Assembly (NCBI RefSeq): GCF_000187935.1
Contig: NZ_AEUT02000001.1
Coordinates: 1,798,001 to 1,862,000 of the forward strand
DNA from: Streptococcus parauberis NCFD 2020
GTDB taxonomy: Bacteria; Bacillota; Bacilli; Lactobacillales; Streptococcaceae
Direction: 5' to 3'
DNA: 64,000 bases
The notes below the pieces were generated by a model. The model was not told where the DNA came from. It ran no database searches and was given only the letters and a program-made list of their open reading frames with translations. Below are positions 46,593 to 64,000 of this stretch, piece by piece. Numbering within the stretch: the first letter of the stretch is position 1; the number at the start of each line of letters is the position of its first letter. Position numbers and translations under genes: made by a program.

Positions 46593-49500
46593 CTAAAATT
46601 TTTTACCTTTAATTGGATTTTTTAGGAATATTGCCAGAGACATAACTACACTAAACAGTGCACCAAGCTTAGAACAATCATCTCGGCTTCCAGTTTCTGG
46701 TAAGGTATGTCCTCTGTTACCCTGCACTTTTTGTTGATGTTTTTGAGTTTCCTTTATTTTAAGTGGTATAGGATTAATAATATTTAAACCGTCTTGCACC
46801 TGTATTACTTCCTGACTATTTAAGTCATCTACCTGTTTTTGGCTCTCATCTTCAGTTAGTGGCAAATCTTTAATTTCCTTCTTTTGAATATTATCAGATT
46901 GTGGATCTGTAATAGTGAATGTAAGGATTTGGAATTGTCGTGTATTGCCTTTAAATAATTCAATACTCAGTTTTTTAATCCCTTCTTGCTGTGTTGATAA
47001 TGGTTCTTTAATACTATAAGAAGTGCCTTCTCCAACTTCTATTAAGTCATTGATTGAGTACTCTTTTCCTCTTTCAAGAATACCTTGTTTAACTTTAACA
47101 GGCAGAGTACTTGTTTGATTCCAATAACTTTTTGCCGTTACAAGTGTACTTGCTTGAATCACATCCTTTTTATCTTGGTAAGTCGGATCAATAACAACTA
47201 CATAATGGTCTTCAACGCTATTTCCATACCTATCTTCTAATCTGACACAGATTTTTTGCTTATCTTTAACTGGCATTGTATAGGACACAAATTTTTGATT
47301 TTTTTGATAATAGCCATCTAAACTAAAGGAATCAATCATATCATTATTGACGTATAGTTTCCAAAAATCAAGATTGTCTTTTACACTAAATTTCATAGTA
47401 AGTTGGTTGGTATTTGTTTTGATAATACCTTTATAATATCCTAGTTGTGAGGTATCACTTTCGTTGGCATCTTCAAAATCATCCAAATCGTCAGAATCGT
47501 TAGAAGTATCTAATACAGGAGTTAAATCTTCATCGTCTTTAAAGACCTCTTTGTTGAGTAACTCTAAAGTCGGAGTTTCTAAGTCTACAAAAATGAAATA
47601 ATTTTTGTGAAAGACTGTGGAACCTTTCTCATCAAGAATATCAACATAAACGAGATTATTCCCATTTGCCAATTTGAGCTTATCCGGAACTTTTTTAGTA
47701 TTATACTCCTGACTTTCCTTATTATAAGAGTCGTTTTCATATTTGAGTGTTGTATCATACATAGCTTTGTATGGATCCGAAAGATTGTTTTGAAGGCTGT
47801 TGTATTGAGTATTGATATTTCTAACACGAGCTTGATAGCCTTTCTTAAGATAAATAGCATAGTCTAAAGTTGCTATTTTTGAGTTATCATCATAAGTAAT
47901 ATGATTTTCTTGAAGACTAGCTAGTGTATGCAAAGTAATTTCTTTTCCATGCGTCAATACTATATTATGAGCATCTATATCCGAGTCTTCATCATCCTCT
48001 TCGTCATCGCTCCAGTCATCGTCATCATCATCTGAGTCTGCTCTATCTTCTAGTTCGTGTCTAGCTAGACTATGGAGGTCATTTTCAGCCTCATCATAAT
48101 TATCATCTGATTTTTTAGGCTGATAGTTATAGTTTGAAAGCGTCTCTTCTTTAACCGTCAGTTTCCCATTTTGGTCAAGGACTACTGTTTTTTCACAGGC
48201 GTTCCCTGCAATATCAGTCGCTACAATCCTTAAAGTGACTTGTCCTCCTTCTTTTTTCGGAATTTCGACAACATATGAGTCGTTTTGGTCTTTGCTTACA
48301 TTTAAAGCTTCATATCTATAGCCTTTTTCTAATGATACCTTAACGGATTCAACTTTATGGTTATCTGTCGCACTAATTTGAAGTGTTTGCTTTTTATACT
48401 TCAAGTCAAAGTCTGGTTTTTCATTATCAATTAAAATTGGTAAATAAATAGTTTCGAATTCATCCGATTTCCCAGCTTTAGCACGAATTCTAAAATAATA
48501 TTGGCCCGGATCAGCTTTCTTCAATTCTCCAAAGCTATTTTCATCATGGATTTTACCATCCCATAAGATATCGCTGTCAATATTTTCTAACTTAGCTTTA
48601 AGGTCTGCACTCTCACGGTAAGAACTTTCCATATACTTGAACGGGTAATGTCCAACTTTTAAAACACGGACAAGCTGATCTTTCTGTTCTCCTTTAACAA
48701 TGGCTACATCGTAGTCACTAGCATCTCTTAAAAAGATAAGTCGCGGTCCAACTTTACGATTTAGATTCGTTGTCATTGCATAATCTTTCGGATTTACTGC
48801 TTCGTCAGACTCATGTTTAATTAGAGGTTCATAATCATTTTTATCATGTTCCAGATATTTTTCCTTAACAAGTTCAACAAGATGTGTGTTAGCGTCTTTA
48901 TCCCACGCCGGCTTGTCTAAAACTGCCTCACTATTCCAATCCCCCATAAATCCCATAAATGGAACACTTAAATGTGGATGTTTTCCATCATGTGACTTGA
49001 AGTAAAGATAGCCTTCAATGAAATCATTAATTAATTCCGAACTTTGCAAATTAAAGGTGATTTCCATACTACCCTTGGCTGCTAAAGTAAGCTGTTTTGG
49101 ACCAGACAACTTGACATCACTTAGGATATTCGGAATGACAGCTTTTATTTTAACTGGACCATACTCATCATCTCGAGTGACTTCTTTAACACTTGTTGTA
49201 AAAATATCTCCCATTTCAATGTCAAAAGTTTGGCTTTGGTTACTCATATTATGTAAAGTCAAAGTAAAGGAGTGGTCCTTACCTATCTCACCTAATGATG
49301 CTCCACCACTTCGCTTACTTCTAATTAATACCTCAGAGTTAAAAGCTTTATTCACATTGATAAAACCAGCCCCTTGTTGTCGAGGAGAATGCTCAATCTC
49401 TTTTCCTAGATCAGAAGCTTGATGATTAATTAATGGAGTTGCCGTGTTCATCAATAAAATTTTCATGATGTCACTGTTAGTTAATTGAAAGCGGCTTTTT

Positions 49501-51449
49501 AATTCTGGGTTCTGATTAATCCATTCTTTAACTTTAGGCAATAGCAAAGCTGCTGAAGCGGCAACGTGTGGCGATGCCATTGATGTCCCGGAACTAATGA
49601 AATAGTCATCATCATTCCTAGTAGAATAAATATATTCTCCTTGTCCAAGAAGATCAGGTTTCATTTCTAAACCAAAATTTGGCCCCCAACTACTAAAGCC
49701 AGAAACACCGTTTTGATCAGCAATAATATATGGCTTAAGCTCCGTTTTAAATTGGAGATTTACTTTTTTGTTTCCAAGCTTTTGGACCTTGTCAATTAAC
49801 TCTTTACCGTCATCATGTGATAATGAAATAACCCAATTTTGTTTTAAATCCAAGTCATCATATCCCATAACAGGTGCCCTATGATAATTTCCACGTGTAG
49901 AAGAAACAATCTCATTCACTAAAATAACACCTTTTGAGTTTTTCAAAAATCGCTCAACTTTTGTTTTTAAAGATTCATCTCCACGTTGAATAAGAACGAC
50001 TTTATCCTTATAACTGTCATTATTTGGATTATACTTGGCAATATCCTCCGGTGTCCCTTTTCCTAAATAGATAATGCCGAAGTCTTCTTTGTTTTTTGGT
50101 AAGCGCTTAATAGAATGTGCACCAACTTCTGTGAATGGGTACTCTTTCCCATCAATCAAAACTCTTGGTAGTGGAACAACCATATTGTTGATCGACCCAA
50201 CTCCGATTGCTGATTCTGTTGCCGCAACTCCTACCGCTGTCGAGGTGTCTTTTAATCTATATTCATTATCAACATAAGTATCGTAAGAATTGGTGGAAGC
50301 TGAACCTGCGTAATTCCCCATAGCCGCAACTACAATTATACCTTCATCCGTAGCTTTCTTAACTGCGGCGTAAAAGTCATCATCAGATAAACCACTTGCT
50401 CGTTCACCGATACTCAAGCTAATGATGTCAGCTTTTCGTCTAATAGCGTCATCAATAGCATGGAATTTTGAATCTGGACCGACATAAGATGGATTATCTT
50501 CATCTTTAGGTTCCGTTGAAAAAACACGATAGGATAAAATTTGTGCATTTGGTGCAATACCTTTAAAGCCTCCAGGGATTTTTGAGTTCCCAGCCAAAAT
50601 ACCAGCAATATGCATCCCGTGCGGACGATTACTTCGGTCTTTTATATCGTATGTTCCAGTCAAATAATTAAAACCAAAAGGGATTTTTTCTGTAAAACCC
50701 AAGTCCTTATTAGCTGCTAATTTTAAATGCTTTTTAACATTTGGATCTTGATCAATTGTCATATCCTGACTATTAACGTCTGCACCAGAGTCGACAGAAG
50801 CAATGACAATTCCCCGTCCATCAAACTTTCGATCATTTGTCGATTTAATATAGGAATCAATTAATTTAGTGAGAGCTTCTTTTTCTGACTTTTCTAAATT
50901 TGTATTAGCAATTTCCTTGATATTCTTGACACCAACCAGTTTATTTAAATAATAAGAAAATTGTTCTGGGACTTGAATATTAACCTTGGAATCATTGAGG
51001 CTCTGTTTCCCTTTTTCCTCTTTTTTTGCTAACATTGCAATTAGCTCGTCATTAACATACTTGGTTTTCTGATCAAATTCTATTTCATATTCTTTTATTC
51101 CATGACTAGAAGCCTCATCAGCATTTTCTGACCTTATTGGCTGTTCTAAATTAACATGATTTGTAGGTAGAGGCTCACTCTTATTAGTGCTTTCATTTTC
51201 TGAATTAGTTTGCTCAACAAAAGCAGAAGACTGATTTGTTGCTTTCTCTTCATAAATTGACATAGGACTCGAGGAATTACTAGCATTTTCCACCTCTAGA
51301 GAACGAGACTCATCAGCTTTTACCTTGGAGAGATAATTACTTGTGTTTTCATTTTGTGATTCAGCTGCTGCTGCCTGACTAGTTAAAAGTAAGGTTAGCG
51401 GACAAACTAAACTTAAAATAGCAATTTTACAGATTTTTTTCTCTTTCAT
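46593..51449 (-). CDS. cell-wall-anchored subtilisin-like serine protease (C5a peptidase/lactocepin family)
   Basis: About 1,618 residues from the ATG at 51449 (GAAGGA six bases upstream; an in-frame ATG seven codons earlier lacks an RBS). It has a signal peptide ending near TSQAAAA. The S8 domain has catalytic Asp (SVDSGAD, ~220), His (PHGMHIAG, ~277), oxyanion Asn (AMGNYAG, ~378) and Ser (SSGTSMASPH, ~622), with an inserted PA-type domain around 430-585. Fn3-like and Ig-like repeats follow, then a very acidic stretch around 1118-1158, more Ig-like domains, and the sortase signal LPETG, hydrophobic segment and basic tail. It should cleave host or milk proteins or chemokines at the cell surface. 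It is monocistronic with its own promoter and terminator. Confidence 0.94.
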   Translation of the reverse strand: MKEKKICKIAILSLVCPLTLLLTSQAAAAESQNENTSNYLSKVKADESRSLEVENASNSSSPMSIYEEKATNQSSAFVEQTNSENESTNKSEPLPTNHVNLEQPIRSENADEASSHGIKEYEIEFDQKTKYVNDELIAMLAKKEEKGKQSLNDSKVNIQVPEQFSYYLNKLVGVKNIKEIANTNLEKSEKEALTKLIDSYIKSTNDRKFDGRGIVIASVDSGADVNSQDMTIDQDPNVKKHLKLAANKDLGFTEKIPFGFNYLTGTYDIKDRSNRPHGMHIAGILAGNSKIPGGFKGIAPNAQILSYRVFSTEPKDEDNPSYVGPDSKFHAIDDAIRRKADIISLSIGERASGLSDDDFYAAVKKATDEGIIVVAAMGNYAGSASTNSYDTYVDNEYRLKDTSTAVGVAATESAIGVGSINNMVVPLPRVLIDGKEYPFTEVGAHSIKRLPKNKEDFGIIYLGKGTPEDIAKYNPNNDSYKDKVVLIQRGDESLKTKVERFLKNSKGVILVNEIVSSTRGNYHRAPVMGYDDLDLKQNWVISLSHDDGKELIDKVQKLGNKKVNLQFKTELKPYIIADQNGVSGFSSWGPNFGLEMKPDLLGQGEYIYSTRNDDDYFISSGTSMASPHVAASAALLLPKVKEWINQNPELKSRFQLTNSDIMKILLMNTATPLINHQASDLGKEIEHSPRQQGAGFINVNKAFNSEVLIRSKRSGGASLGEIGKDHSFTLTLHNMSNQSQTFDIEMGDIFTTSVKEVTRDDEYGPVKIKAVIPNILSDVKLSGPKQLTLAAKGSMEITFNLQSSELINDFIEGYLYFKSHDGKHPHLSVPFMGFMGDWNSEAVLDKPAWDKDANTHLVELVKEKYLEHDKNDYEPLIKHESDEAVNPKDYAMTTNLNRKVGPRLIFLRDASDYDVAIVKGEQKDQLVRVLKVGHYPFKYMESSYRESADLKAKLENIDSDILWDGKIHDENSFGELKKADPGQYYFRIRAKAGKSDEFETIYLPILIDNEKPDFDLKYKKQTLQISATDNHKVESVKVSLEKGYRYEALNVSKDQNDSYVVEIPKKEGGQVTLRIVATDIAGNACEKTVVLDQNGKLTVKEETLSNYNYQPKKSDDNYDEAENDLHSLARHELEDRADSDDDDDDWSDDEEDDEDSDIDAHNIVLTHGKEITLHTLASLQENHITYDDNSKIATLDYAIYLKKGYQARVRNINTQYNSLQNNLSDPYKAMYDTTLKYENDSYNKESQEYNTKKVPDKLKLANGNNLVYVDILDEKGSTVFHKNYFIFVDLETPTLELLNKEVFKDDEDLTPVLDTSNDSDDLDDFEDANESDTSQLGYYKGIIKTNTNQLTMKFSVKDNLDFWKLYVNNDMIDSFSLDGYYQKNQKFVSYTMPVKDKQKICVRLEDRYGNSVEDHYVVVIDPTYQDKKDVIQASTLVTAKSYWNQTSTLPVKVKQGILERGKEYSINDLIEVGEGTSYSIKEPLSTQQEGIKKLSIELFKGNTRQFQILTFTITDPQSDNIQKKEIKDLPLTEDESQKQVDDLNSQEVIQVQDGLNIINPIPLKIKETQKHQQKVQGNRGHTLPETGSRDDCSKLGALFSVVMSLAIFLKNPIKGKKF

Positions 51450-51520
51450 ATTTATCCTTCTAATCGGCAAATGTTTTTAACGCCGTTTATTTTATTTATT
51501 AAGCTTACTTAATTTATTAC

Positions 51521-51786: not shown

Positions 51787-52035
51787 ATGTTCTTAATCCA
51801 TGGGATGAAACCCTCAATGTCTCGTAAAGGCAATAGCTTAGACAATGGCATGATGGAATCTTTCTTTGGAACACTGAAAACAGAAATGTTTTATGGGTTT
51901 GAGAAAGAATTTACTTCCCTTGAAGCACTGAAAAAAGCTATTTCAGTATATATCAACTACTACAATACTAAACGAATCAAACTAACATTAAAAGGACTGA
52001 GTCCTGTGCAATACAGAACTCAATCCTTAGTTTAA
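51787..52035 (+). pseudogene. IS3-family transposase orfB, C-terminal fragment
   Basis: 82 residues, of which about 76 match the C-terminal end of IS150/IS861-type transposases: NSLDNGMMESFFGTLK includes the last acidic residue of the DDE triad, the rest is the conserved tail. A full orfB has about 270-280 residues, so this is a broken copy without the first two catalytic Asp residues and cannot act. It lies in the same orientation as the N-terminal fragment at 53993. Confidence 0.85.
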
Positions 52036-53870: not shown

Positions 53871-53999
53871 ATGTTCAAAAAAGCTTGTGCGTTAGAAACA
53901 AAATTAGCATGTATTGAAATAAAAAAAACAGGTAAAAGTGACAAAGTCATTATGGATACACTTGGAATAAAAATTAAAAGTCAGGTCTATACTTGGTGA
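53871..53999 (+). pseudogene. IS3-family orfA fragment
   Basis: 42 codons beginning MFKKACALETKLACIEIKK, like the helix-turn-helix leader protein of IS3 elements, stopped early by a TGA. A normal orfA is 90-100 residues or more, so the reading frame is broken here by the stop and a frameshift. Confidence 0.7.
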
Positions 54000-54631
54000 A
54001 GCTGCTATCAAAAAGGAGAGACTCATCGCTTCTTATAACCAGTAGGCAAACAATATACCTATGGAAAGGTATGGAGCAGTTATCCGAGGTTGAAGAATTG
54101 AGGCTTCAACTTGAGTTTTTAAAAAAACTATCGAAGCTTGATGAGAAAATCGACAAGGTAAGTCTTATCAAGCTCGTTGAACATTATAAAAATCAATATC
54201 CTATAAAATTCATACTTGACTGTTTTAAAGTGTCACGATCTACTTACTATCGTTGGAAATCTGATATGAGCCAACCTACTCATCACGATAGCATCGTTGA
54301 GAAAATTGAGAATTTATCTGTAAAATATGAATTTATCTATGGGTATAGAACTACCAGAATTTTACTGATTGATGAGTATGGGATTGTTGTGAATGTTAAA
54401 AAAGTCTATCGCCATTATGAAGAAAAATGGCTGGTTATATCGCACAAGACCAAAGAAGGATCCTCATTTAGGAAAACTTATTATGTCACTGATAATAAGT
54501 TAGACTGTCAATTTAACGTCGACAAACCACTTCAAAAACTTGTTACAGATATTACCTATCTCCATTTCGGAGGACGTAAACTTTATTTATCATCTATCAT
54601 GGACCTTTATCATCATGAGATTATGTACTGA
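53993..54631 (+). pseudogene. IS3-family orfA/orfB fusion, truncated transposase
   Basis: 212 codons: the remainder of orfA (TIYLWKGMEQLSEVEELRL), then orfB from LVEHYKNQYPIKFILDCFKVSRSTYYRWK through TDITYLHFGGRKLYLSSIMDLY, which includes the first catalytic Asp. It stops where another IS end begins, so the second Asp and Glu are missing. The missing C-terminal part corresponds to what survives at 51787. Confidence 0.82.
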
Positions 54632-54828: not shown

Positions 54829-56658
54829 TCAATCATCTTTTTCTTGAAACCACTTAAGAGGGTAATAGCCCGGTTTTATCTTTTTATTTGTCATTTTATA
54901 TACATTTGCTTTAAATGTATAGTGATTATTTAAAAGAAAAATACCATCATAATTCTTAATAGTCTTTTCAAACTTTTCCTCAGATGTCATAAAATCAAAT
55001 TTAACATCAACCTTGGAATTCCACAATTGATATCTCGAATAATAACTTAAAAAATAGTTATCAACTAATTCTTTGTTATCAGAAACTATCAAAAATTTCC
55101 CTTTCCCATAGTCTTTTTCTTTGGATAGTTTCTTTAGGATTATTTGATCTTTTGACTGTAGCATATTTTGTTTGATTATACCATTTGTATCAGATATCAC
55201 AAAACCTAGAAAGACAACGATTGCAAGAAGTGTCGCATTCTCGTAAATATTTTTATTTTTAAAATTTTTGAATGATCTATTATCTCTTTTGGAATAATTT
55301 TTCTCATAAAAAAGGTCATCTAATTGTCTAACTCCCTGTATGATAAACATAAAGAAATTAATAACAATGATTGTCAAAATATACCTTTCAAAACCAGCAA
55401 TTCTTTTTGCTTCCTCAACTGGCATTGCAGTAAGATACATTATTAAATTTCCAAAATAATAAAGAAATGTAATTAGTACGTTGGCCCAAAAAACCATTAT
55501 ATTAGTTTTCCAAGTCTTAAACTTTATTCCAATAACAAGACTAAATAATAGAAAAGAAGAAAAAATAACGATAATTTGAAGAGATGTGAGTGTGTGAATT
55601 GAGAATACCGTTTTTAGATAATTATTTAGTATAAGCTGCTGATTGATAGATAGCCTTCCCTCGAACACACTTGTGATTGGGCCAGCTGCAAAATCATGTT
55701 TTTTGCTAGCCATACCAGCAAAAACACTTTTCACATGAACTGACCATAATTGATTAAAAATAATTGGCAGTAGTAAAAGTAAGCTACTTAAATAGAGCTT
55801 AATATTTTTTTCATGTCTATTCTTTCTAATAAAAACACCTAGGTAAGCAATAATAATACATATTACAAAAAATAAAGCACTAGCTTTGACAAGAACTAAA
55901 AATGATAAAATAATAGAAATGAAAAACGATATTTGCAGAAAATTATTTTTCTGCAAATATAAGACCGAAATTGCTGAAATTGCCAAAATAGCAATTAATA
56001 AATCTACTAATAAATTATTAAATCTAATAGAAAAGTTTAAGTAAGTCATTACTCCCAAACTCGCAAAAATGATCGCATTCGGTAACAGCCTTCGATGATC
56101 TTTTACGACTCCAAAAATTGAGAACTGTGCGGCTGCGATTATTAAAAACTGACCAACCAGCATAATTCCTTCACTGAAGCCTACATATTTCGTTATATAA
56201 TATAAATACAATGAGCTCCCAACTGGATAAGTATTATATGATATAATACGATCTGCAACAGCCGGTAGTCTATCTTCTAGAAACAAGAATTTTACAATCG
56301 TAGCCCAATGAGTAAAATTATCATAATGCAAAAGTGATTGATTCCATAATGCTGCTATATAAACACCAACATAAAACAACATCCCAAAGGTAACAAAGTT
56401 TAAACGGTTTAAAAGATTTCCAATTGTTAATCCTTTTGCTTTCACAATACTAAAAATAAACAACAAAATACCTAGAAAATAAATCATTAAAGAAGCAGGA
56501 AATAAGAAATTTACTAATGAAGATAAATAAAGGATTACAACTTGACAACTAATGACAACTATATATATATGATATTTCGAAATACTGGTCATTAATCTAA
56601 TGAAACTTGTATATCCAACTAAAGAAACTATAAAAAATATAAACTTAATGATTTCCAT
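54829..56658 (-). CDS. multi-spanning GT-C-like membrane protein of the polysaccharide locus
   Basis: 609 residues with about 11-13 hydrophobic segments and a C-terminal soluble tail. An early outside loop contains HYDNFTHWATIVKFLF and YNTYPVGSS, with acidic and aromatic residues typical of lipid-linked-sugar-dependent (GT-C) transferases or polymerase-like proteins. I do not recognise a named family. Its ATG overlaps the end of the PilZ glycosyltransferase gene by 14 bases behind GGGGAG, so it is translated with it. Role inferred: transfer of sugars delivered on a lipid carrier by the GT2-GtrA protein, or decoration of the polymer. Confidence 0.62.
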   Translation of the reverse strand: MEIIKFIFFIVSLVGYTSFIRLMTSISKYHIYIVVISCQVVILYLSSLVNFLFPASLMIYFLGILLFIFSIVKAKGLTIGNLLNRLNFVTFGMLFYVGVYIAALWNQSLLHYDNFTHWATIVKFLFLEDRLPAVADRIISYNTYPVGSSLYLYYITKYVGFSEGIMLVGQFLIIAAAQFSIFGVVKDHRRLLPNAIIFASLGVMTYLNFSIRFNNLLVDLLIAILAISAISVLYLQKNNFLQISFFISIILSFLVLVKASALFFVICIIIAYLGVFIRKNRHEKNIKLYLSSLLLLLPIIFNQLWSVHVKSVFAGMASKKHDFAAGPITSVFEGRLSINQQLILNNYLKTVFSIHTLTSLQIIVIFSSFLLFSLVIGIKFKTWKTNIMVFWANVLITFLYYFGNLIMYLTAMPVEEAKRIAGFERYILTIIVINFFMFIIQGVRQLDDLFYEKNYSKRDNRSFKNFKNKNIYENATLLAIVVFLGFVISDTNGIIKQNMLQSKDQIILKKLSKEKDYGKGKFLIVSDNKELVDNYFLSYYSRYQLWNSKVDVKFDFMTSEEKFEKTIKNYDGIFLLNNHYTFKANVYKMTNKKIKPGYYPLKWFQEKDD

Positions 56659-58864
56659 TTACACTCCCCATATATAATTCGTTATAAAATCTTTGCATTC
56701 CTCCATTTGCTTTCTCTTCAAAACTTACAACATTATAACATACCAATTGATTAGAAGGGCTGATCATTTTTTTCTGAAGATTAAGTCTGATATCTGAATT
56801 ATCGAAAGTAATATAATCTTTTGGTGTTAACTGAGAATCATAACTCAATTCAATTTCACTAACATTAAATTTAGTTATTCGCATTGGTTCACTATTAAGA
56901 GATACTGGAAAATTTGTTGAAATTTCTGGAAACATGGTATTCCCTCTGGAACTTACTAAATTGTAATTCGTCATTAAATGTAATCGTTGAATTAAATTAT
57001 TATACAGATCATCCCAAATAGTAACCCAATTATCACGTACCTCAGTTAAATATTTATTGGAACGGTCATAGATATAGTAGAAATAAGCCTTTTTATTCTT
57101 ATTGTCTAAATCAACTATTTTAATTCCGTATAGCCATTTTCCCTTTTTACTCACAACTCTTGTAAGTTGACCTTTTATATCAAATTCATATTCACCATCA
57201 TATAATGATATTTGCATACTATCCCTTATGTAAAGCGGTTTTGAACTAACAAACGATAAACCATGTTCAGAAACATCCACAATTTGAATATTTTCTTGCA
57301 GTCCACCAACTGTTAAATTTGCATTTTCTTTAACCAAAAATCTCTCTTCTTTTCTAAAAATAGGTCTTCCTAAAGTCGAAAAAAGAGCAAAAGTTAAATT
57401 TATTAAATGATGCAACAACCAAAAGCTAATCACTGAACCATAAAATAGTTCCGATCCATATTTTCCAATATTAAAACTAATTAATCCATATAAAGATAAA
57501 ATCCATAAAATTAAATATGGTAAGGCGAAAAGATAGTCAAAATTACGATTACTTACTGATTTAGAGGTTACTTTAAATTTTTTTTCACTAATCCCGATTG
57601 ACTCTAAAAAAATAGGGATAACAAGATATGGGGCAAAGACTGTTTCTACTATTTCCCCCCAAGTTTGCGTACGGTAACTATCTGTCACATCTCTCATGGC
57701 TAACTTCGTTAAAATATAGGATGGCAACCAAAAAATTAATAGTAGCCAGACATTAGCTTTTACAATTCTAATATGGAATACAGTGTAAAGTATCGGAGCA
57801 ATAATATAGACTAATCTTCTAAAAAAAGAACTCCAATAAAAATAGCCATTTATATAGATCATTCTTTGTCCCAAAGTTAACTTTGGATTAAAAAAGATAT
57901 TTACATTATAACTACTTTTAATAACTCCTCTTCCCCACCTTATCCTTTGTTTAATGACACTTCTTAGGTCTGTTGGTGTTAAACCGCTTGCCATAGGTTT
58001 TGTGGTTGAATAATTGAGATAACCAGCAATATTCATTCTTACTCCGAGTTCAAAATCTTCTGTTATGGTTTGAGTAGGAAATCCACCAGCATCTTCAATT
58101 GCTTTTCTTCTCAATAATGTATTTGATCCAGTATAAACAGATGCTCCACGTGTATTATTAAGTACATTTACACTTTTTGAAAAAAAGTCCTGCTCATTTG
58201 GAAGTTTATCCTCGGAATAAAAATGAAATTGGAAAATATCTGGATTATAAAAACTCTGCGGTGTTTGAATTAATCCAATCGGCTTAGAGTCTCCTCGGTC
58301 TTTTAAAAAATAAGGGACAGTCTCTAATAAAAAATCTTTGTAGGGAATCATATCTGCATCAAATGTTGCAATATAAGGTGAGTTGGTCAGACTAAGTGCA
58401 TTATTTAGATTTCCTGATTTTGCGTGCTTATTATTTTCTAATCCAAAATAACCAACAGAAAACTCTTCAGCAAGTTTTTTAATTTCTGGACGATTTGTAT
58501 CATCTGCAATATAAATATGTACTTTAGACTTATCAGGATAATTCATTCTTACACAAGCATTCACTGTTTTGTACAAAATCTCGTAATCTTCGTTATGAGT
58601 TGCAATAAACACATCAATATCAGGTAAGTTTTCCTGTGTCATAACACCTTTTTCTAAATTAACTTCCTTACTTTTATTAACAATTAAAACAAAAGCTGTA
58701 AAAAAGGACGTCAGTTCACTAAACCATAGAATCAAACCTGAAATATATGAAAAATGTGAATCTTCCCAAGGTATTGTAAAAAATAATCTCCAAAATAAAT
58801 AAAGAACACTAGTAAGAAAGGCAAAAAAATATAGGATTTTATTAATTTTTGAATTTTTTAACAA
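56645..58864 (-). CDS. cellulose-synthase-like processive glycosyltransferase with C-terminal PilZ domain
   Basis: 739 residues from TTG at 58864, chosen because CGGAGA lies seven bases upstream and the gene before ends at 58842; an ATG at 58939 would overlap it by 98 bases. Two N-terminal spans, then a GT2 domain with Asp-Asp (YIADDTNR, ~121), DxD (TFDADM, ~169), TED (TITEDFELG, ~268) and QxxRW (KQRIRWGRG, ~306), further spans, then a PilZ domain with RxxxR (FRKEERF, ~504-508) and DxSxxG (DVSEHG, ~530-535). PilZ residues for c-di-GMP binding are complete, so the enzyme should be switched on by c-di-GMP like BcsA. The polymer is unknown; it may not be cellulose. Confidence 0.88.
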   Translation of the reverse strand: MLKNSKINKILYFFAFLTSVLYLFWRLFFTIPWEDSHFSYISGLILWFSELTSFFTAFVLIVNKSKEVNLEKGVMTQENLPDIDVFIATHNEDYEILYKTVNACVRMNYPDKSKVHIYIADDTNRPEIKKLAEEFSVGYFGLENNKHAKSGNLNNALSLTNSPYIATFDADMIPYKDFLLETVPYFLKDRGDSKPIGLIQTPQSFYNPDIFQFHFYSEDKLPNEQDFFSKSVNVLNNTRGASVYTGSNTLLRRKAIEDAGGFPTQTITEDFELGVRMNIAGYLNYSTTKPMASGLTPTDLRSVIKQRIRWGRGVIKSSYNVNIFFNPKLTLGQRMIYINGYFYWSSFFRRLVYIIAPILYTVFHIRIVKANVWLLLIFWLPSYILTKLAMRDVTDSYRTQTWGEIVETVFAPYLVIPIFLESIGISEKKFKVTSKSVSNRNFDYLFALPYLILWILSLYGLISFNIGKYGSELFYGSVISFWLLHHLINLTFALFSTLGRPIFRKEERFLVKENANLTVGGLQENIQIVDVSEHGLSFVSSKPLYIRDSMQISLYDGEYEFDIKGQLTRVVSKKGKWLYGIKIVDLDNKNKKAYFYYIYDRSNKYLTEVRDNWVTIWDDLYNNLIQRLHLMTNYNLVSSRGNTMFPEISTNFPVSLNSEPMRITKFNVSEIELSYDSQLTPKDYITFDNSDIRLNLQKKMISPSNQLVCYNVVSFEEKANGGMQRFYNELYMGSVNGNH

Positions 58865-59921
58865 TTTGATTCTCCGATTTTTTTGTAAAAATATATTTTT
58901 TTTGAATTTGATAACTGAAAATAAATAAAAATACATCAACCAATATTTTCACAAGTGTTAAATTAAATTGAGGGAGTACCTTGTTAATAATGGTTACAAA
59001 AGATGCTGACATTGTAATTTGAATTATCACCAGTAAAAAATACTTAATTAAGCTTGTTTTATCTCCTTTTTTAAATACAAATGCTTTATTCATGAAGAAA
59101 TTAAAGAGAGAAGAAATAAATCGAGATAAAAATGAAGCCAAAAATATAGTATTGATGCTGAAGTTTCTTAGAAGAAATATAAGAAATGCAAAAACTGAGA
59201 TATCGACAATAAATGAACTAGAAGAGGATATGATAAATTTTAAAAAGGTTGAATAGATTTTAAGTGAATCCTTAATAGGATTAAAATGTGATGAGTTATT
59301 TTCATCAATATAAATCGTATCAATTGGTACTTCTACAATTCTGATATTGTTCTCTTTTAAAAATAAAAGCATTTGCATCTCATATTCATAACGCTCACCA
59401 TTTAGTTCCAATAATTTGTTTAAGTATTGCACTGGAATAACACGTAAGCCTGTTTGAGTGTCTGAAATATTAAGTCCCATTGAAAAACTTAAAATATCTC
59501 TTGTCATAAGATTTCCAAACTTACTTCTTAATGGCACATTATCTTCAAAATTACGGGAACCTAATACGACTGGTTTTAATTTATTATTTGTTTCATAAGA
59601 TTTCAAACACCTTACTGTATCTCTTATGGTATGCTGACCATCACCATCAATTGTAACTACTGCATCTATAAAATCTAGTTTCTTCAAAATATATGTAAAA
59701 CCAGTCTTTAGAGCATACCCTTTTCCTCTATTTTCTTGATATGTGATAAAGTGTACATTCTTCTCTATCTCTGAGAAAATTTTCTTATAACCACTACCAC
59801 TTCCATCATCAATGACAATAATTGGACATTTTTTTAAATAATCATCCACTATTAATGTATTTATTAATTCTATTAATTTAAAATCCGGTTGATAACTTGG
59901 TATTAATATAGCGAAATTCAT
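58842..59921 (-). CDS. GT2 glycosyltransferase fused to GtrA-like membrane domain
   Basis: 359 residues: N-terminal GT2 domain of the dolichyl/undecaprenyl-phosphate sugar transferase type (ILIPSYQPDFKLIE, IVIDDGSGSG, VTIDGDGQH as DxD, DTQTGLRVIP) to about residue 215, then four hydrophobic segments of the GtrA family. Such proteins move a sugar onto a polyprenyl phosphate and flip or present it across the membrane for a GT-C enzyme. That fits the GT-C-like protein encoded two genes downstream. First gene of the second half of the locus, preceded by a 216-base AT-rich gap that may carry a promoter. Confidence 0.85.
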   Translation of the reverse strand: MNFAILIPSYQPDFKLIELINTLIVDDYLKKCPIIVIDDGSGSGYKKIFSEIEKNVHFITYQENRGKGYALKTGFTYILKKLDFIDAVVTIDGDGQHTIRDTVRCLKSYETNNKLKPVVLGSRNFEDNVPLRSKFGNLMTRDILSFSMGLNISDTQTGLRVIPVQYLNKLLELNGERYEYEMQMLLFLKENNIRIVEVPIDTIYIDENNSSHFNPIKDSLKIYSTFLKFIISSSSSFIVDISVFAFLIFLLRNFSINTIFLASFLSRFISSLFNFFMNKAFVFKKGDKTSLIKYFLLVIIQITMSASFVTIINKVLPQFNLTLVKILVDVFLFIFSYQIQKKYIFTKKSENQIVKKFKN

Positions 59922-60137
59922 CTAATAACTTCTCCAGTTTATTTATTAACTGAGTACATACATACTTTATAAAAAGAAATAATCATAACTCAAGTAAATA
60001 TTGTAATATTTAATGTAAAAACTATCTGCTAAAATTTCGTAGTCTATTATTGATATACATCGATAGATTTTTTTAATTTCAAATATCCTTCGACTATAAA
60101 CTTTCTTGTATTAAGTAAGAATAACTGAAATATCTAT
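59922..60137 (-). other. AT-rich gap inside the c-di-GMP locus
   Basis: 216 bases with no ORF. On the minus strand TTGAGT and TAAAGT 18 bases apart are a weak promoter candidate close to the GT2-GtrA gene. I saw no strong terminator and no c-di-GMP riboswitch-like sequence, so the upstream and downstream halves may be one or two transcription units. Confidence 0.4.
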
Positions 60138-60938
60138 TTAGTTTTCCTTGAGGTGTGGTTTTCCAATGTAATAACCTTGGCGGTTAGACATATCTAATTG
60201 ATCTGCTAAAGACATATCTTCTGTAGACTCAATCTCAGTTAAATCAATACTTATTTGATTTAACTGACTTAGTCTCACCCAGTCACCTATGTTCTTAAAA
60301 TACCATTCTTCATCATTTTTCTTTTGAAATTTGGACAATGGTATTTTAAGCCCAGACACCAGTTTCAGATATTTTTTAACCTTTTGATAATAGTTTTTGT
60401 CTGGACTTATTTGTTCCAAGATGACTTCTACGCCTAAGTCTTTACTTACTTTTAAATTCTTTTTCAGGCGCCAGCTGGTCCAAGGGCTAATAAATTGAGT
60501 TGAAGCAATATGAAATTCTATACGGACTTTCATTGGGTAAATGGCCCCTTTTAACCATTTGATAAAGTAGACATAACGAGGATCAACCAGTTGTTTTAAG
60601 CTAATATTGATAGCTAGAAAACCATTAGGGTATTCCTTTTTTAGTAGACTTTTATGAAGTAGGTAGATAACTTCACGTAGTGTAAAATGATCAATGTCTT
60701 CTGGTAAAGACCAGTTCTTATTTTCTTCATTATATTTCCTAAGTAGGGCTTCAAAGCCACTTACCCGACCATCTCTATCTATAATTTTCTGAAAATGAAA
60801 TGAGTAATTTTTGATATTTTTCATAGTTTTTGGGTAGATAGCATTTTGTCTTTTGGCCCCAATATAACTAATCAAAATTGTAACAATACTAACTATAGTA
60901 AAAATAATTGCAATGAGTAACAAGATTTCAATAAGCAT
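60138..60938 (-). CDS. membrane-anchored degenerate EAL-domain protein
   Basis: 266 residues: one N-terminal membrane span (about 2-27), then an EAL domain. FEALLR (E63, R67), Asn111 in AINISLK, Glu141 in RIEFHI, Lys198 and the closing QGYYIGKP are kept. The catalytic Asp-Asp of the DDFG motif is replaced by Glu-Gln (VILEQIS, ~175-176), and loop 6 is not conserved. Hydrolysis of c-di-GMP is therefore unlikely, and it more probably acts as a c-di-GMP receptor or scaffold at the membrane. Five bases after the PgaC-like gene with GAAGGA as RBS, so it should work with that synthase. Confidence 0.82.
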   Translation of the reverse strand: MLIEILLLIAIIFTIVSIVTILISYIGAKRQNAIYPKTMKNIKNYSFHFQKIIDRDGRVSGFEALLRKYNEENKNWSLPEDIDHFTLREVIYLLHKSLLKKEYPNGFLAINISLKQLVDPRYVYFIKWLKGAIYPMKVRIEFHIASTQFISPWTSWRLKKNLKVSKDLGVEVILEQISPDKNYYQKVKKYLKLVSGLKIPLSKFQKKNDEEWYFKNIGDWVRLSQLNQISIDLTEIESTEDMSLADQLDMSNRQGYYIGKPHLKEN

Positions 60939-60942
60939 CTTT

Positions 60943-62280
60943 TTATTCCTTCTTTAAGCTTTTTCGTGTAGGACTAACCCAAGCTCCATAATCTGTCTCT
61001 TTTCCTAGAAAGGCTCTTACTGCTGGTAGGAAAGTTGTTACGATAGTTAAAGGATTAATCATCCAGAAAAAAATCATATATAATGGTGAAAAAATAAAAT
61101 ACTTTAACTTTTCACCCTTACTGTCTAAAATAAGTGCAGCTAATAATTGAAGACAACCTGCCACCAATTCAAATGTAACAAAAATAAATGACATTATTAC
61201 AGCATGCCAAACTCTTTCAAAATTGCTAGTTGCCAAAAAGTAAGTGAGAGTTACTATGAAAACAAATGAAGAGATAAAAAAGAAGAAAGACCAGATAATT
61301 GAAAATGTCGTATCAACAAACATCGAAAAAACATAACGGTATTTGATTGGATGTTTGATAAACATACTAAAGTTGGTCAGCCATACTTCTGTACCTCCTT
61401 GTGCCCACCGTTGTCTCTGTTTATAAAGTTGTGACAAGGTCTCTGGCACATTCATATGGAAAATAATATCAGGGGCAAATCGAGGCACAATTCCAAACAT
61501 CAAGTGATCCCAAGCAATACTAATATCTTCTGTACTTCTGTCCTGACGAAACCCAGCAACATTAATTAAAAATTCTTTTTTATACATGGTATTAGCGCCA
61601 CTATAAGCATACATAGAATCATTGACCGCCGTCTGACTACGTTTAATAACGCCAACAATACTAGAAAACTCAACTGTTTGTGATTTCCCTAAAAGTGTAC
61701 TCCTATTTTGCACATCCATATTGGCCGTAACAGCTGCCGTATTGACATCTTTATCACTCATAAAATAGTTCATATATTTCATTAAAGCATCCGGTTCGGG
61801 AATGGTATCTGCATCGTTACTCAAAATATACTCCCCCTTTGCAAAGAAAAGACCTAAATTAAAGCCATGTGCCTTACCCTGGTTTTTTTGAATATTGAGA
61901 ACCCGTAACTTGTCATATTTTTCTTGTAATTTTTTTAAAATGTCCAGTGTAGCATCTTTACTGCCATCATTGATGACCAATATTTCGTAGTTAGTATAGT
62001 TTATTTGCGTGGCTAAATAATCGATTGTCTCTTCAATCATAACTTCTTCATTATGAGCAGGAATCATGATTGTAATCATTGGTTGGTCTTGAGGACTTAA
62101 GAACTGGAAATCATTTTCTTTTTTATCTTTTTTTAGAAATTTATAGCTTAAGGCTCCAAAAAACCAGAATAAGGCACCAATTACAGGATATAGACACAAA
62201 ATTAAGAATAAAATCAAAATAATATTATAAAGAAAATTTTCGGTTAAGGATAAATTATTAAAAATGGTATCGTTAATCAT
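60943..62280 (-). CDS. PgaC/IcaA-like processive GT2 glycosyltransferase
   Basis: 445 residues: two N-terminal spans, GT2 domain, three or so C-terminal spans. Catalytic motifs are complete: VINDGSKD (~105), SNDADTI (DxD, ~156-158), STEDISIAWD (TED, ~250-252) and KQRQRWAQGG (QxxRW, ~288-292). The QRxRWAQGG form is typical of poly-beta-1,6-N-acetylglucosamine synthases. It follows the PgaD-like gene by three bases with AAGGAG, as pgaC-pgaD pairs do in reverse order. No deacetylase (PgaB/IcaB) gene is in the window. Polymer identity is inferred, not proven. Confidence 0.86.
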   Translation of the reverse strand: MINDTIFNNLSLTENFLYNIILILFLILCLYPVIGALFWFFGALSYKFLKKDKKENDFQFLSPQDQPMITIMIPAHNEEVMIEETIDYLATQINYTNYEILVINDGSKDATLDILKKLQEKYDKLRVLNIQKNQGKAHGFNLGLFFAKGEYILSNDADTIPEPDALMKYMNYFMSDKDVNTAAVTANMDVQNRSTLLGKSQTVEFSSIVGVIKRSQTAVNDSMYAYSGANTMYKKEFLINVAGFRQDRSTEDISIAWDHLMFGIVPRFAPDIIFHMNVPETLSQLYKQRQRWAQGGTEVWLTNFSMFIKHPIKYRYVFSMFVDTTFSIIWSFFFFISSFVFIVTLTYFLATSNFERVWHAVIMSFIFVTFELVAGCLQLLAALILDSKGEKLKYFIFSPLYMIFFWMINPLTIVTTFLPAVRAFLGKETDYGAWVSPTRKSLKKE

Positions 62281-62283
62281 TGT

Positions 62284-62784
62284 TTACTCCTTATTGTTGA
62301 TAACATTAGCCAACTCATTATTCGCTAAGTTTTTCTCTGGCATAACATCATAATATCGAACATTAATCCGATAATCTTCCTTACCAAATCTATCTTCCAT
62401 AAATTGGGAAGCTTTCTTTTGCCTTTCAATGCTTGAAACTGAATCATAGGTTGGCCATTTTTCAACAAAAGATTCTCTACGGTTATTTTGAACGATTGTC
62501 ATTGTGACAGTATAGATCATTGTCATAAAAGCAGCAAAAATGAACAAAACAATTAAAAAGCTAACTAATTTGATCCCTTCTTGATAACTCCAAATTCCCC
62601 AACCAAGTTGATGCTGTGACACAAAGAATATGTAACTACTGACAGTGATAAATGTTGGTAGGATAAAAAAAAACCATCCAAAGAGGGCGTAGAATGTTTG
62701 TTTTATCTTTAACAGATAATGCCCCTCTTCAAAAAATGAATCTGTATAAGCATAGGTTACTTCTTTTTTTTTCATTTTTTCCAT
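62284..62784 (-). CDS. two-span membrane protein, PgaD-like synthase partner
   Basis: 166 residues: a short cytoplasmic N-terminus (Met1 or Met4), two hydrophobic segments (about 34-54 and 70-96), then a charged cytoplasmic tail. The size and topology match PgaD/IcaD-type partners, which bind c-di-GMP together with the glycosyltransferase in E. coli. Sequence identity in that family is low, so the call depends on topology and on lying directly before the PgaC-like gene. Basic residues just after the second span (QNNRRESF) could contribute to ligand binding. Confidence 0.6.
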   Translation of the reverse strand: MEKMKKKEVTYAYTDSFFEEGHYLLKIKQTFYALFGWFFFILPTFITVSSYIFFVSQHQLGWGIWSYQEGIKLVSFLIVLFIFAAFMTMIYTVTMTIVQNNRRESFVEKWPTYDSVSSIERQKKASQFMEDRFGKEDYRINVRYYDVMPEKNLANNELANVINNKE

Positions 62785-62818
62785 CGTATTTCCTTTTCTA
62801 AAATTGCATTTTTGATAA

Positions 62819-63532
62819 TTATTGATTTAATCTTAAGACTTTAGGAGATTTATTACCCTTGCCCCAATAAAATCCTTGCTGTAATGAGATCCCAATTTTT
62901 TGCAACATTTTCGATTTTTTGCGACTGTCTACTCTTTCCACAACAATTGCAATCTCTCTTTCAGATACAAGTTTTAACCATTTTGTATAGCACACCAGTA
63001 GAAGAATATAAAACAGTGAAAAAGTCCCCGTTAGGCTGATTTTGATGCGATCATAATAGTCTTTATATTTAATATAAAGCAAACAAGTATTAATTTCTTC
63101 CGTAAAATCATCTATGGCAATCGTAAAATGATAAGCTTTTAAGGTTCTTAAAATGTCAGTAAGACTGTCCATCAGCTCAGGTTTATGGCGAGGGCGATGT
63201 TCTGTAATTTCAATAATTAAGCGATCAGAAAATGAACTTACTCGATCAAAGAAAAAAGTAGTTGCTGAAAATTGAAATTGATCAATATCAAAATTTAGTG
63301 AAAAGATAGTCTTAGGATTTTCCTCTAACACCTTAAGAATCTCAATTTGAAACCACTGAAAAAAGTTCTGGTATTTTACCTCGTTTGAGAGAATCTCACA
63401 GAATAACTGGGTCGGAAATTGGTCCTTCTCAGTCGATCTGAGCAGCACTTCATATTCCTCTACGATTATTGAATTTCTTTTTTCGACTTTAACAATCGGT
63501 TGGAAGATCAAATATAATTGGTCTAATGACAT
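62819..63532 (-). CDS. EAL-domain c-di-GMP phosphodiesterase, probably active
   Basis: 237 residues, a bare EAL domain without membrane span or sensor. The residues expected for metal and substrate binding are there: E28 (YEVLLR, R32), N80, E108 (IIEITEH), D141-D142 (IAIDDFT), K164, E199 and Q219 (QGFYWGKG). Loop 6 is atypical (DDFTEEINTCL instead of DDFGTGYSSL), so activity could be weak. It is encoded just after the GGDEF gene (73-base gap) and 34 bases before the PgaD-like gene, in one minus-strand unit. Confidence 0.82.
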   Translation of the reverse strand: MSLDQLYLIFQPIVKVEKRNSIIVEEYEVLLRSTEKDQFPTQLFCEILSNEVKYQNFFQWFQIEILKVLEENPKTIFSLNFDIDQFQFSATTFFFDRVSSFSDRLIIEITEHRPRHKPELMDSLTDILRTLKAYHFTIAIDDFTEEINTCLLYIKYKDYYDRIKISLTGTFSLFYILLLVCYTKWLKLVSEREIAIVVERVDSRKKSKMLQKIGISLQQGFYWGKGNKSPKVLRLNQ

Positions 63533-63605
63533 TCTTTTCCTTTATCTTTCTTTTAGTATGAAGCAATGAATCATTTCCTCATTGATATTCGTTTAACTGA
63601 ATGTA

Positions 63606-64000
63606 TTAGGATAAAGACAGATGAACTCTCTTTTGTGAATTCTTGTGGTTGTACATCTCTTTATCTGCTTGATCCAAAAAGTATATTAAGTCATTACTTG
63701 CAGTATTTTCTGCAAAAACTTTACCAAACGACACAGAGACACCATATTTTTCAAAGTCATCCATGCGCATTTTAATATTGGATTGAATTCCGACAACATC
63801 TTGATAAGTTACATCTGGAATCAGGACACTAAACTCATCTCCACCTATCCGAGAGATGATAGCCTCAGATGGAAATTCCATCTTTAAAATATTTGCAAAA
63901 TCAATTAATAATTGATCTCCTATTTTATGACCAAACTGATCATTAGATTGTTTGAAATTATCTAAATCAAAGACAAAAATCCAGGTTGATTGATTATTTT
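63606..64000 (-). CDS. GGDEF diguanylate cyclase, C-terminal part (5' end outside window)
   Basis: The frame is open to the last base, so the start and any sensor domain lie beyond the window. The visible 131 residues are nearly a full GGDEF domain: FVFDLDNFKQSNDQFGHKIG (metal-binding Asp and nucleotide site), then SRIGGDEFSVLI with an intact GGDEF signature, and the closing QADKEMYNHKN. It should make c-di-GMP from two GTP. No RxxD inhibitory motif is seen five residues before GGDEF. First or near-first gene of the locus. Confidence 0.93.
   Translation of the reverse strand, partial: NNQSTWIFVFDLDNFKQSNDQFGHKIGDQLLIDFANILKMEFPSEAIISRIGGDEFSVLIPDVTYQDVVGIQSNIKMRMDDFEKYGVSVSFGKVFAENTASNDLIYFLDQADKEMYNHKNSQKRVHLSLS

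Follow-up and report, generated by a model that had tools for sequence, protein, structure and literature searches.

Introduction

Can a single locus of a streptococcus make, degrade and read cyclic di-GMP (c-di-GMP) and pass this one signal to two polysaccharide synthases? The question is raised by an eight-gene locus on the minus strand of Streptococcus parauberis NCFD 2020, located at the end of a 64,000-nucleotide stretch of its genome (2.16 Mb, one contig), hereafter called the window (G000:C1:1798001-1862000). Most work on c-di-GMP concerns bacteria that possess many cyclases, in which its specificity is hard to trace. An earlier inspection of the window without database searches (the sequence-only reading) had proposed here a complete circuit with its own outputs. 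We found that the locus combines two cassettes, each of them widespread by itself: GtrA-BcsA-GTC (with diguanylate cyclase, DGC, and phosphodiesterase, PDE) and PgaD-PgaC-EALdeg (EALdeg, degenerate EAL protein). Their joining is what is new. We consider it rather probable that this joining has produced a closed circuit in which c-di-GMP serves two outputs.

A c-di-GMP gene set confined to one locus

The locus runs from G000:C1:1862682, beyond the window, to window position 54829, and its gene order from 5' to 3' is DGC, EAL, PgaD-like, PgaC-like, degenerate EAL, GT2-GtrA, BcsA-PilZ and GT-C (coordinates below are window positions, and those of the locus itself are on the minus strand). Gene content, motifs and module structure were observed directly. 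All eight frames are open in this genome, at or near the positions assigned by the sequence-only reading, and the GGDEF, EAL, PilZ, GtrA and GT2 profiles matched as that reading had claimed; its PgaD-like protein matched neither Pfam nor NCBIfam at E values up to 0.1. The whole genome holds one GGDEF, two EAL and one PilZ matches, every one inside the locus; none was found elsewhere, HD-GYP and MshEN domains not being searched for. The proposed self-contained set for making, breaking and sensing the signal beside two synthases is thus supported by its domains, its motifs and this confinement.

The C-terminal part of the cyclase gene lies at 63606..64000. It extends 682 bases past the window and encodes 358 amino acids in full (L002:11609-12682 without the stop codon): a hydrophobic N-terminus with two transmembrane segments by eye, a PAS_4 domain and the GGDEF domain (82.1 bits for the portion within the window). 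The left end and the sensor domain of the locus, which the sequence-only reading had left to be sought outside the window, are a cyclase start at 1862682 and a PAS_4 match just above cut-off (23.4 bits, cut-off 23.1). The active site, RIGGDEF, is intact, and in the alignment other residues occupy the positions of the RxxD inhibitory site.

The EAL profile matched the two EAL proteins of the locus at 61.5 and 43.7 bits. The first, an EAL-only phosphodiesterase of 237 amino acids (62819..63532), aligns with the EAL structure 3kzp, which we take to be a Listeria protein, and retains E28, L30, N80, E108, E111, D141, D142, K164, E199 and Q219; its EGVE motif reads ERVD. The second EAL protein (60138..60938, 266 amino acids) has a hydrophobic N-terminus with a membrane segment by eye. 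It keeps EALLR, N, K and Q, but the Asp-Asp pair is gone, as are the second Glu of the metal site and the Glu that serves as catalytic base. These losses resemble the pattern of Lactobacillus acidophilus PdeB, which binds c-di-GMP with a dissociation constant of 4.87 uM without cleaving it (PMC6123363); by this analogy the degenerate EAL protein is a probable c-di-GMP receptor and not a hydrolase.

Genes are tightly packed at most junctions (34, 3 and 4 bp, and two overlaps), as the sequence-only reading had noted, the exceptions being 73 bp that follow the cyclase gene and 216 bp that separate the degenerate EAL gene from the GT2-GtrA gene (59922..60137). This last, non-coding gap is the seam of the two modules. 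The G+C content is 28.4% in the GtrA-BcsA-GTC cassette (cassette A), 32.5% in the PgaD-PgaC-EALdeg cassette (cassette B), 31.7% in the cyclase and EAL genes and 36.5% at window positions 1-54000. An Rfam scan of the window at the gathering threshold gave Lacto-rpoB alone and no c-di-GMP riboswitch; a permissive scan of 11 kb, which took in the whole locus and the 265 bp preceding the cyclase, yielded three matches of unrelated families, far under their gathering scores. Predicted promoters were no commoner than in shuffled sequence (68 sites against 70.5, standard deviation 9.0) and none is therefore claimed, and terminator-like sites numbered 9 against 5.8 (standard deviation 2.1).

Two synthases and their accessory proteins

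The PgaC/GtsB-like GT2 synthase (60943..62280, 445 amino acids) carries, by its sequence, the motifs of processive, secretory GT2 enzymes. Its nearest named relatives belong to Lactobacillaceae (about 70% identity), with unnamed proteins at 71-84%, and a single PgaC cluster of 26 member sequences has a representative 100% identical to it. It scores 314.8 bits against TIGR03937 (PgaC/IcaA synthase of poly-N-acetylglucosamine), under the NCBI equivalog cut-off of 422.3, and this profile score does not support poly-N-acetylglucosamine as the product. The adjoining PgaD/GtsA-like gene (62284..62784, 501 bp) is intact in the window and encodes a small membrane protein of 166 amino acids, modelled as two long helices at a mean confidence (pLDDT, predicted local distance difference test) of 58.6, too poor for a fold search. 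Two 9-base homopolymers lie in this gene (62665-62772; on the coding strand A9 at codons 5-7 and T9 at codons 38-40). The near-identical relatives P0124-P0126 and P0128 have frames shortened at the N-terminus, with starts at or past the T tract, consistent with strain-to-strain variation in tract length, another upstream change or sequencing error.

In cassette A, the BcsA-like GT2 synthase with C-terminal PilZ domain (56645..58864; PilZ, 38.2 bits) probably starts at a TTG at 58864 and not at the listed frame start, 58939. Its motifs are intact (DD, DAD, TED, QRIRW and FKVT, with RKEER and DVSEHG in PilZ), and among solved structures it is closest to catalytic subunits of cellulose synthase, 7lby and 4hg6 among them. 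Against TIGR03030 (UDP-forming cellulose synthase) it reaches 363.4 bits, under the equivalog cut-off of 699.1, so that cellulose as its product is not supported by the profile comparison. The GT2 (Dpm1-type)-GtrA hybrid (58842..59921, 359 amino acids; GtrA, 32.4 bits) is predicted to be a polyprenyl-phosphate sugar synthase combined with a flippase. The last gene (54829..56658) encodes a polytopic membrane protein of 609 amino acids that matched no Pfam family and shows a GT-C (ArnT-like) fold in its predicted model. Its D113 and N114 are invariant in 41 aligned sequences and are candidates for the transfer from polyprenyl-phosphate sugar. Together, the GtrA and GT-C proteins suggest that the BcsA product may be decorated.

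Two cassettes that are otherwise found apart

BcsA-profile matches in Lactobacillales, Paenibacillaceae, Clostridia and other groups gave 552 loci, of which the best 80, named, were compared; many of their flanks end at contig ends and a few organisms occur twice. Among these 80, BcsA was accompanied by GTC in 76, by DGC in 24 and by an EAL protein like the window's in 8 (BcsA itself, 80); all three genes of cassette A were present in 59. The degenerate-EAL query matched in two, both times an active-looking EAL protein. PgaD was found in none and PgaC in one (28% identity). Conversely, the PgaD family of cassette B occurs in 60 of 395 genomes of the order, own genome included (E<=1e-8), and the window's PgaC, PgaD and EALdeg proteins show kinship to their counterparts in other genomes of the order. 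In 40 stretches of 9.0-18.9 kb drawn from those 60 genomes, we found PgaC in 39, the degenerate EAL in 18, DGC in one and GtrA, BcsA or GTC in none. A third set comprised 16 stretches from 15 genomes, taken around the GGDEF matches of other streptococci; in two of these genomes the matches are below the cut-off, and five of the stretches come from contigs that apparently also occur among the 80 loci. Of the 16 stretches, 12 have GtrA and BcsA, one has an EAL protein like the window's (genome G151), and none has PgaD, PgaC or EALdeg. Across the three sets, the joined cassettes were found in the window's genome only.

These counts also bear on the idea that both GT2 enzymes together make a single heteropolysaccharide instead of two polymers. 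The co-location of the two genes and their shared signalling enzymes would fit it. We regard it as very improbable, as each cassette is found without the other (no PgaD in the 80 BcsA loci, no BcsA in the 40 PgaD stretches) and both synthases carry the motifs of processive, secretory enzymes.

Streptococcal relatives and origin of the locus

GGDEF and PilZ matches above cut-off were found in 14 and 11, respectively, of 284 Streptococcus genomes, own genome included in both counts. The GGDEF count agrees with the view of the sequence-only reading that c-di-GMP signalling is absent from most streptococci, although a streptococcal module had already been published (PMC10333796). A strong PgaD match occurs in one of the 284 genomes (309.5 bits, the next 29.2). 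The PgaD-like matches in 108 other streptococci, all at or below 29.2 bits, were taken as chance membrane similarity because the best of them (L119, the one inspected) is presumably a CvpA-like gene, next to what we recognise as mutS2-like and rnhC-like genes. The other Streptococcus genomes with a GGDEF match have one each, except G051, where a second cyclase lies beside a protein of 1118 amino acids with two more GGDEF matches (L028:8191-12910).

In four stretches (L023, L029, L030 and L031) the cassette sits between the same two flanking genes, which we take to be trmB and rimP. This agrees with the published streptococcal module of DGC, Dpm1-GtrA, cellulose-synthase-like and polytopic inner membrane protein at a trmB/rimP site (Liu et al. 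2020, ACS Infect Dis, reviewed in PMC10333796), and G051 appears to fit S. henryi as described in that review. As far as the review describes it, the module resembles our locus in its PAS-GGDEF cyclase, Dpm1-GtrA hybrid, BcsA-like synthase and polytopic protein, in the same order. Here, in contrast, four genes, the phosphodiesterase and the whole PgaD-PgaC-EALdeg cassette, are inserted between DGC and GtrA, the chromosomal site is another one, and BcsA belongs to a separate subclade.

A BcsA tree of 36 rows (31 loci, four proteins and the window) grouped the window's BcsA with an S. uberis-labelled protein, G151, Lactococcus fujiensis, a Lactovum-labelled protein and P0010 (support 100/100). 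A single clade for the 13 Streptococcus rows was rejected (approximately unbiased test, p-AU 1.5e-5), the tested group having been named after a first tree. The window's BcsA is placed by this tree outside the trmB/rimP-site clade. Among named BcsA proteins, one with an S. uberis label is the closest (91% identity), and unnamed relatives, many on short contigs, are 70-80% identical. Genome G151 has the gene order GtrA-BcsA-GTC-DGC-EAL; an insertion with two transposase-like frames splits its BcsA gene (L032:2311-3993). In the simplest account, a G151-like set of DGC, EAL, GtrA, BcsA and GTC would have been rearranged and then gained cassette B.

The trmB/rimP insertion is not seen here, the flanks being a sugar-kinase/phosphotransferase system (PTS) operon and a transposase-like frame, both named by recognition. 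Upstream of the cyclase, L003:947-10319 (G+C of 0.37-0.45 per kb where profiled) is presumably a beta-glucoside PTS operon, with two 6-phospho-beta-glucosidase-like genes, a kinase, PTS parts and a regulator. On the other side, two plus-strand frames that we recognise as transposase-like adjoin the locus (51787-52035, 82 amino acids; 53993-54631, 212 amino acids). Further out, 3.4 kb from the locus end, a large frame with an LPETG-type C-terminus (46593-51470) is presumably a C5a-peptidase-like subtilase. No empty insertion site could be defined, because the best full-length match of the right-flank regulator in 30 other genomes had 29% identity; the left flank was not searched.

Comparison with known systems

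In S. parauberis SPOF3K, bcsA (02074), pga (02077) and dgc/pde (02080) have been reported as members of one cluster of seven genes (PMC8153452). This cluster is almost certainly our locus, since the spacing of BcsA, GtrA, EALdeg, PgaC, PgaD, EAL and DGC fits these gene numbers. One difference has no simple fit: the C5a peptidase gene of SPOF3K (00380) is numbered far from the cluster, whereas the C5a-peptidase-like gene lies close by in the window. As far as it was accessible, the SPOF3K account is silent on a degenerate-EAL receptor, on a PAS sensor, on the GT-C gene and on an origin from two cassettes. In fish serum, log2 changes at 1, 2 and 4 h were -1.05, 0.97 and 0.95 for bcsA and -3.10, 1.10 and 1.13 for adrA, the cyclase gene (PMC8153452).

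That both genes are transcribed and regulated argues against a joined locus that is decaying or silent, with surface polymers off in many strains and broken copies tolerated. Broken copies do exist: N-terminally truncated PgaD frames occur among deposited near-identical sequences (P0124-P0126, P0128), and in relatives BcsA is split by the insertion (G151), BcsA and GTC are shortened (G082) or the cyclase carries a stop (G231). In S. alactolyticus P0099, a BcsA-PilZ stretch of about 90 residues with QxxRW is absent, so that this protein is probably inactive as a polymerase; more clusters share its length and coverage, P0099 being the one aligned. However, none of the eight frames is broken in the window's genome and the PgaC cluster holds 26 sequences with an identical representative. 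We therefore judge decay improbable.

The first half of the locus has a counterpart in L. acidophilus, where dgcA-pdeA and gtsA-gtsB-pdeB form two operons (He et al. 2018, PMC6123363). PDE activity was shown for it, and GtsAB conferred Congo-red binding and biofilm on E. coli. Compared by description, both sets have a GGDEF protein without inhibitory site, an EAL protein with catalytic residues, a small transmembrane protein, a PgaC-like synthase and a degenerate EAL protein with EXLXR, lost catalytic acids and an N-terminal membrane signal. They differ in that DgcA has five transmembrane helices where the window's cyclase has a short transmembrane part and PAS, and in that the accessible text names no PilZ synthase beside the two operons, whereas here one gene run is joined to BcsA-PilZ.

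For the second half, the nearest comparison is RiGT2, the mixed-linkage glucan synthase of Romboutsia ilealis, likewise a Gram-positive BcsA-like GT2 enzyme with C-terminal PilZ (PMC10374906). It makes glucan without responding to c-di-GMP, its PilZ showed no binding yet is required for activity, and the source, as far as available, mentions no DGC or PDE neighbours. By analogy, c-di-GMP might control the Pga/Gts half alone, with a constitutive BcsA half and a structural PilZ. In line with this, no DGC match was present in the fetched flanks of 56 of the 80 BcsA loci, some flanks being cut by contig ends and cyclases elsewhere in those genomes not being looked for. However, BcsA shares its stretch with a cyclase in 12 of the 16 other streptococcal stretches (which had been selected by a GGDEF match), and the window's PilZ has kept both RxxxR and DxSxxG. 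Control of one half alone thus seems unlikely to us, though less so than decay.

Discussion

The circuit with two outputs is the reading that we favour, and several points weigh against it. In the first EAL protein, as in its G151 relative, Asp replaces the second Glu of EGVE, the motif in which the catalytic base of EAL domains lies (PMC12900916); the sequence-only reading had credited this protein with all catalytic residues, and its catalytic core is kept with this exception. The locus contains no BcsB-like gene, no genome-wide search having been made. With so poor a model, what supports the PgaD analogy is the position of the gene and the kinship of its product to other small proteins encoded next to PgaC. 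L. acidophilus DgcA without its transmembrane part showed no cyclase activity in vitro (PMC6123363), bcsA and the cyclase gene of SPOF3K fall at 1 h before they rise at 2 and 4 h (PMC8153452), and RiGT2 teaches that an intact PilZ motif is no proof of control. The novelty first attached to the locus was also stated too strongly: streptococcal modules have been published, the S. parauberis cluster had been reported, and the first half has its L. acidophilus counterpart.

From the gene content we infer the activities, the products, the signal sensed and the decoration step, as follows. A PAS-coupled membrane cyclase without product-inhibition site would make c-di-GMP, and the EAL-only phosphodiesterase would degrade it. 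The PilZ domain of the BcsA-like synthase would read the signal, upon which the active site would open and a beta-glucan be polymerised and extruded. The membrane-anchored degenerate EAL protein would bind c-di-GMP uncut and switch on the PgaD/PgaC synthase. GT2-GtrA and the ArnT-like GT-C protein would make, flip and attach a side-chain sugar onto the BcsA product outside the membrane. Listeria reportedly has a c-di-GMP-inducible exopolysaccharide too, as a Firmicute with a different synthase and receptor.

More tentatively, and with much less confidence than for the circuit as such, one pool fed by one cyclase and drained by one phosphodiesterase might serve two receptors, PilZ in cis on the BcsA-like synthase and the degenerate EAL in trans on PgaCD. 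These would presumably differ in affinity, so that the level of the signal would pick the polymer. The BcsA product would then be a new kind of c-di-GMP-controlled, outside-decorated beta-glucan, made with a GtrA/GT-C branching apparatus that is conserved across Firmicutes. For the GtrA-BcsA-GTC cassette, no report of a product turned up in the literature consulted. With its sole recognisable GGDEF, EAL and PilZ matches in one two-output locus, this genome would offer a minimal example from nature of a single signal that serves two receptors and two polymers. The locus also draws attention to the GtrA-BcsA-GTC cassette, which is widespread in Firmicutes and may make a decorated beta-glucan.
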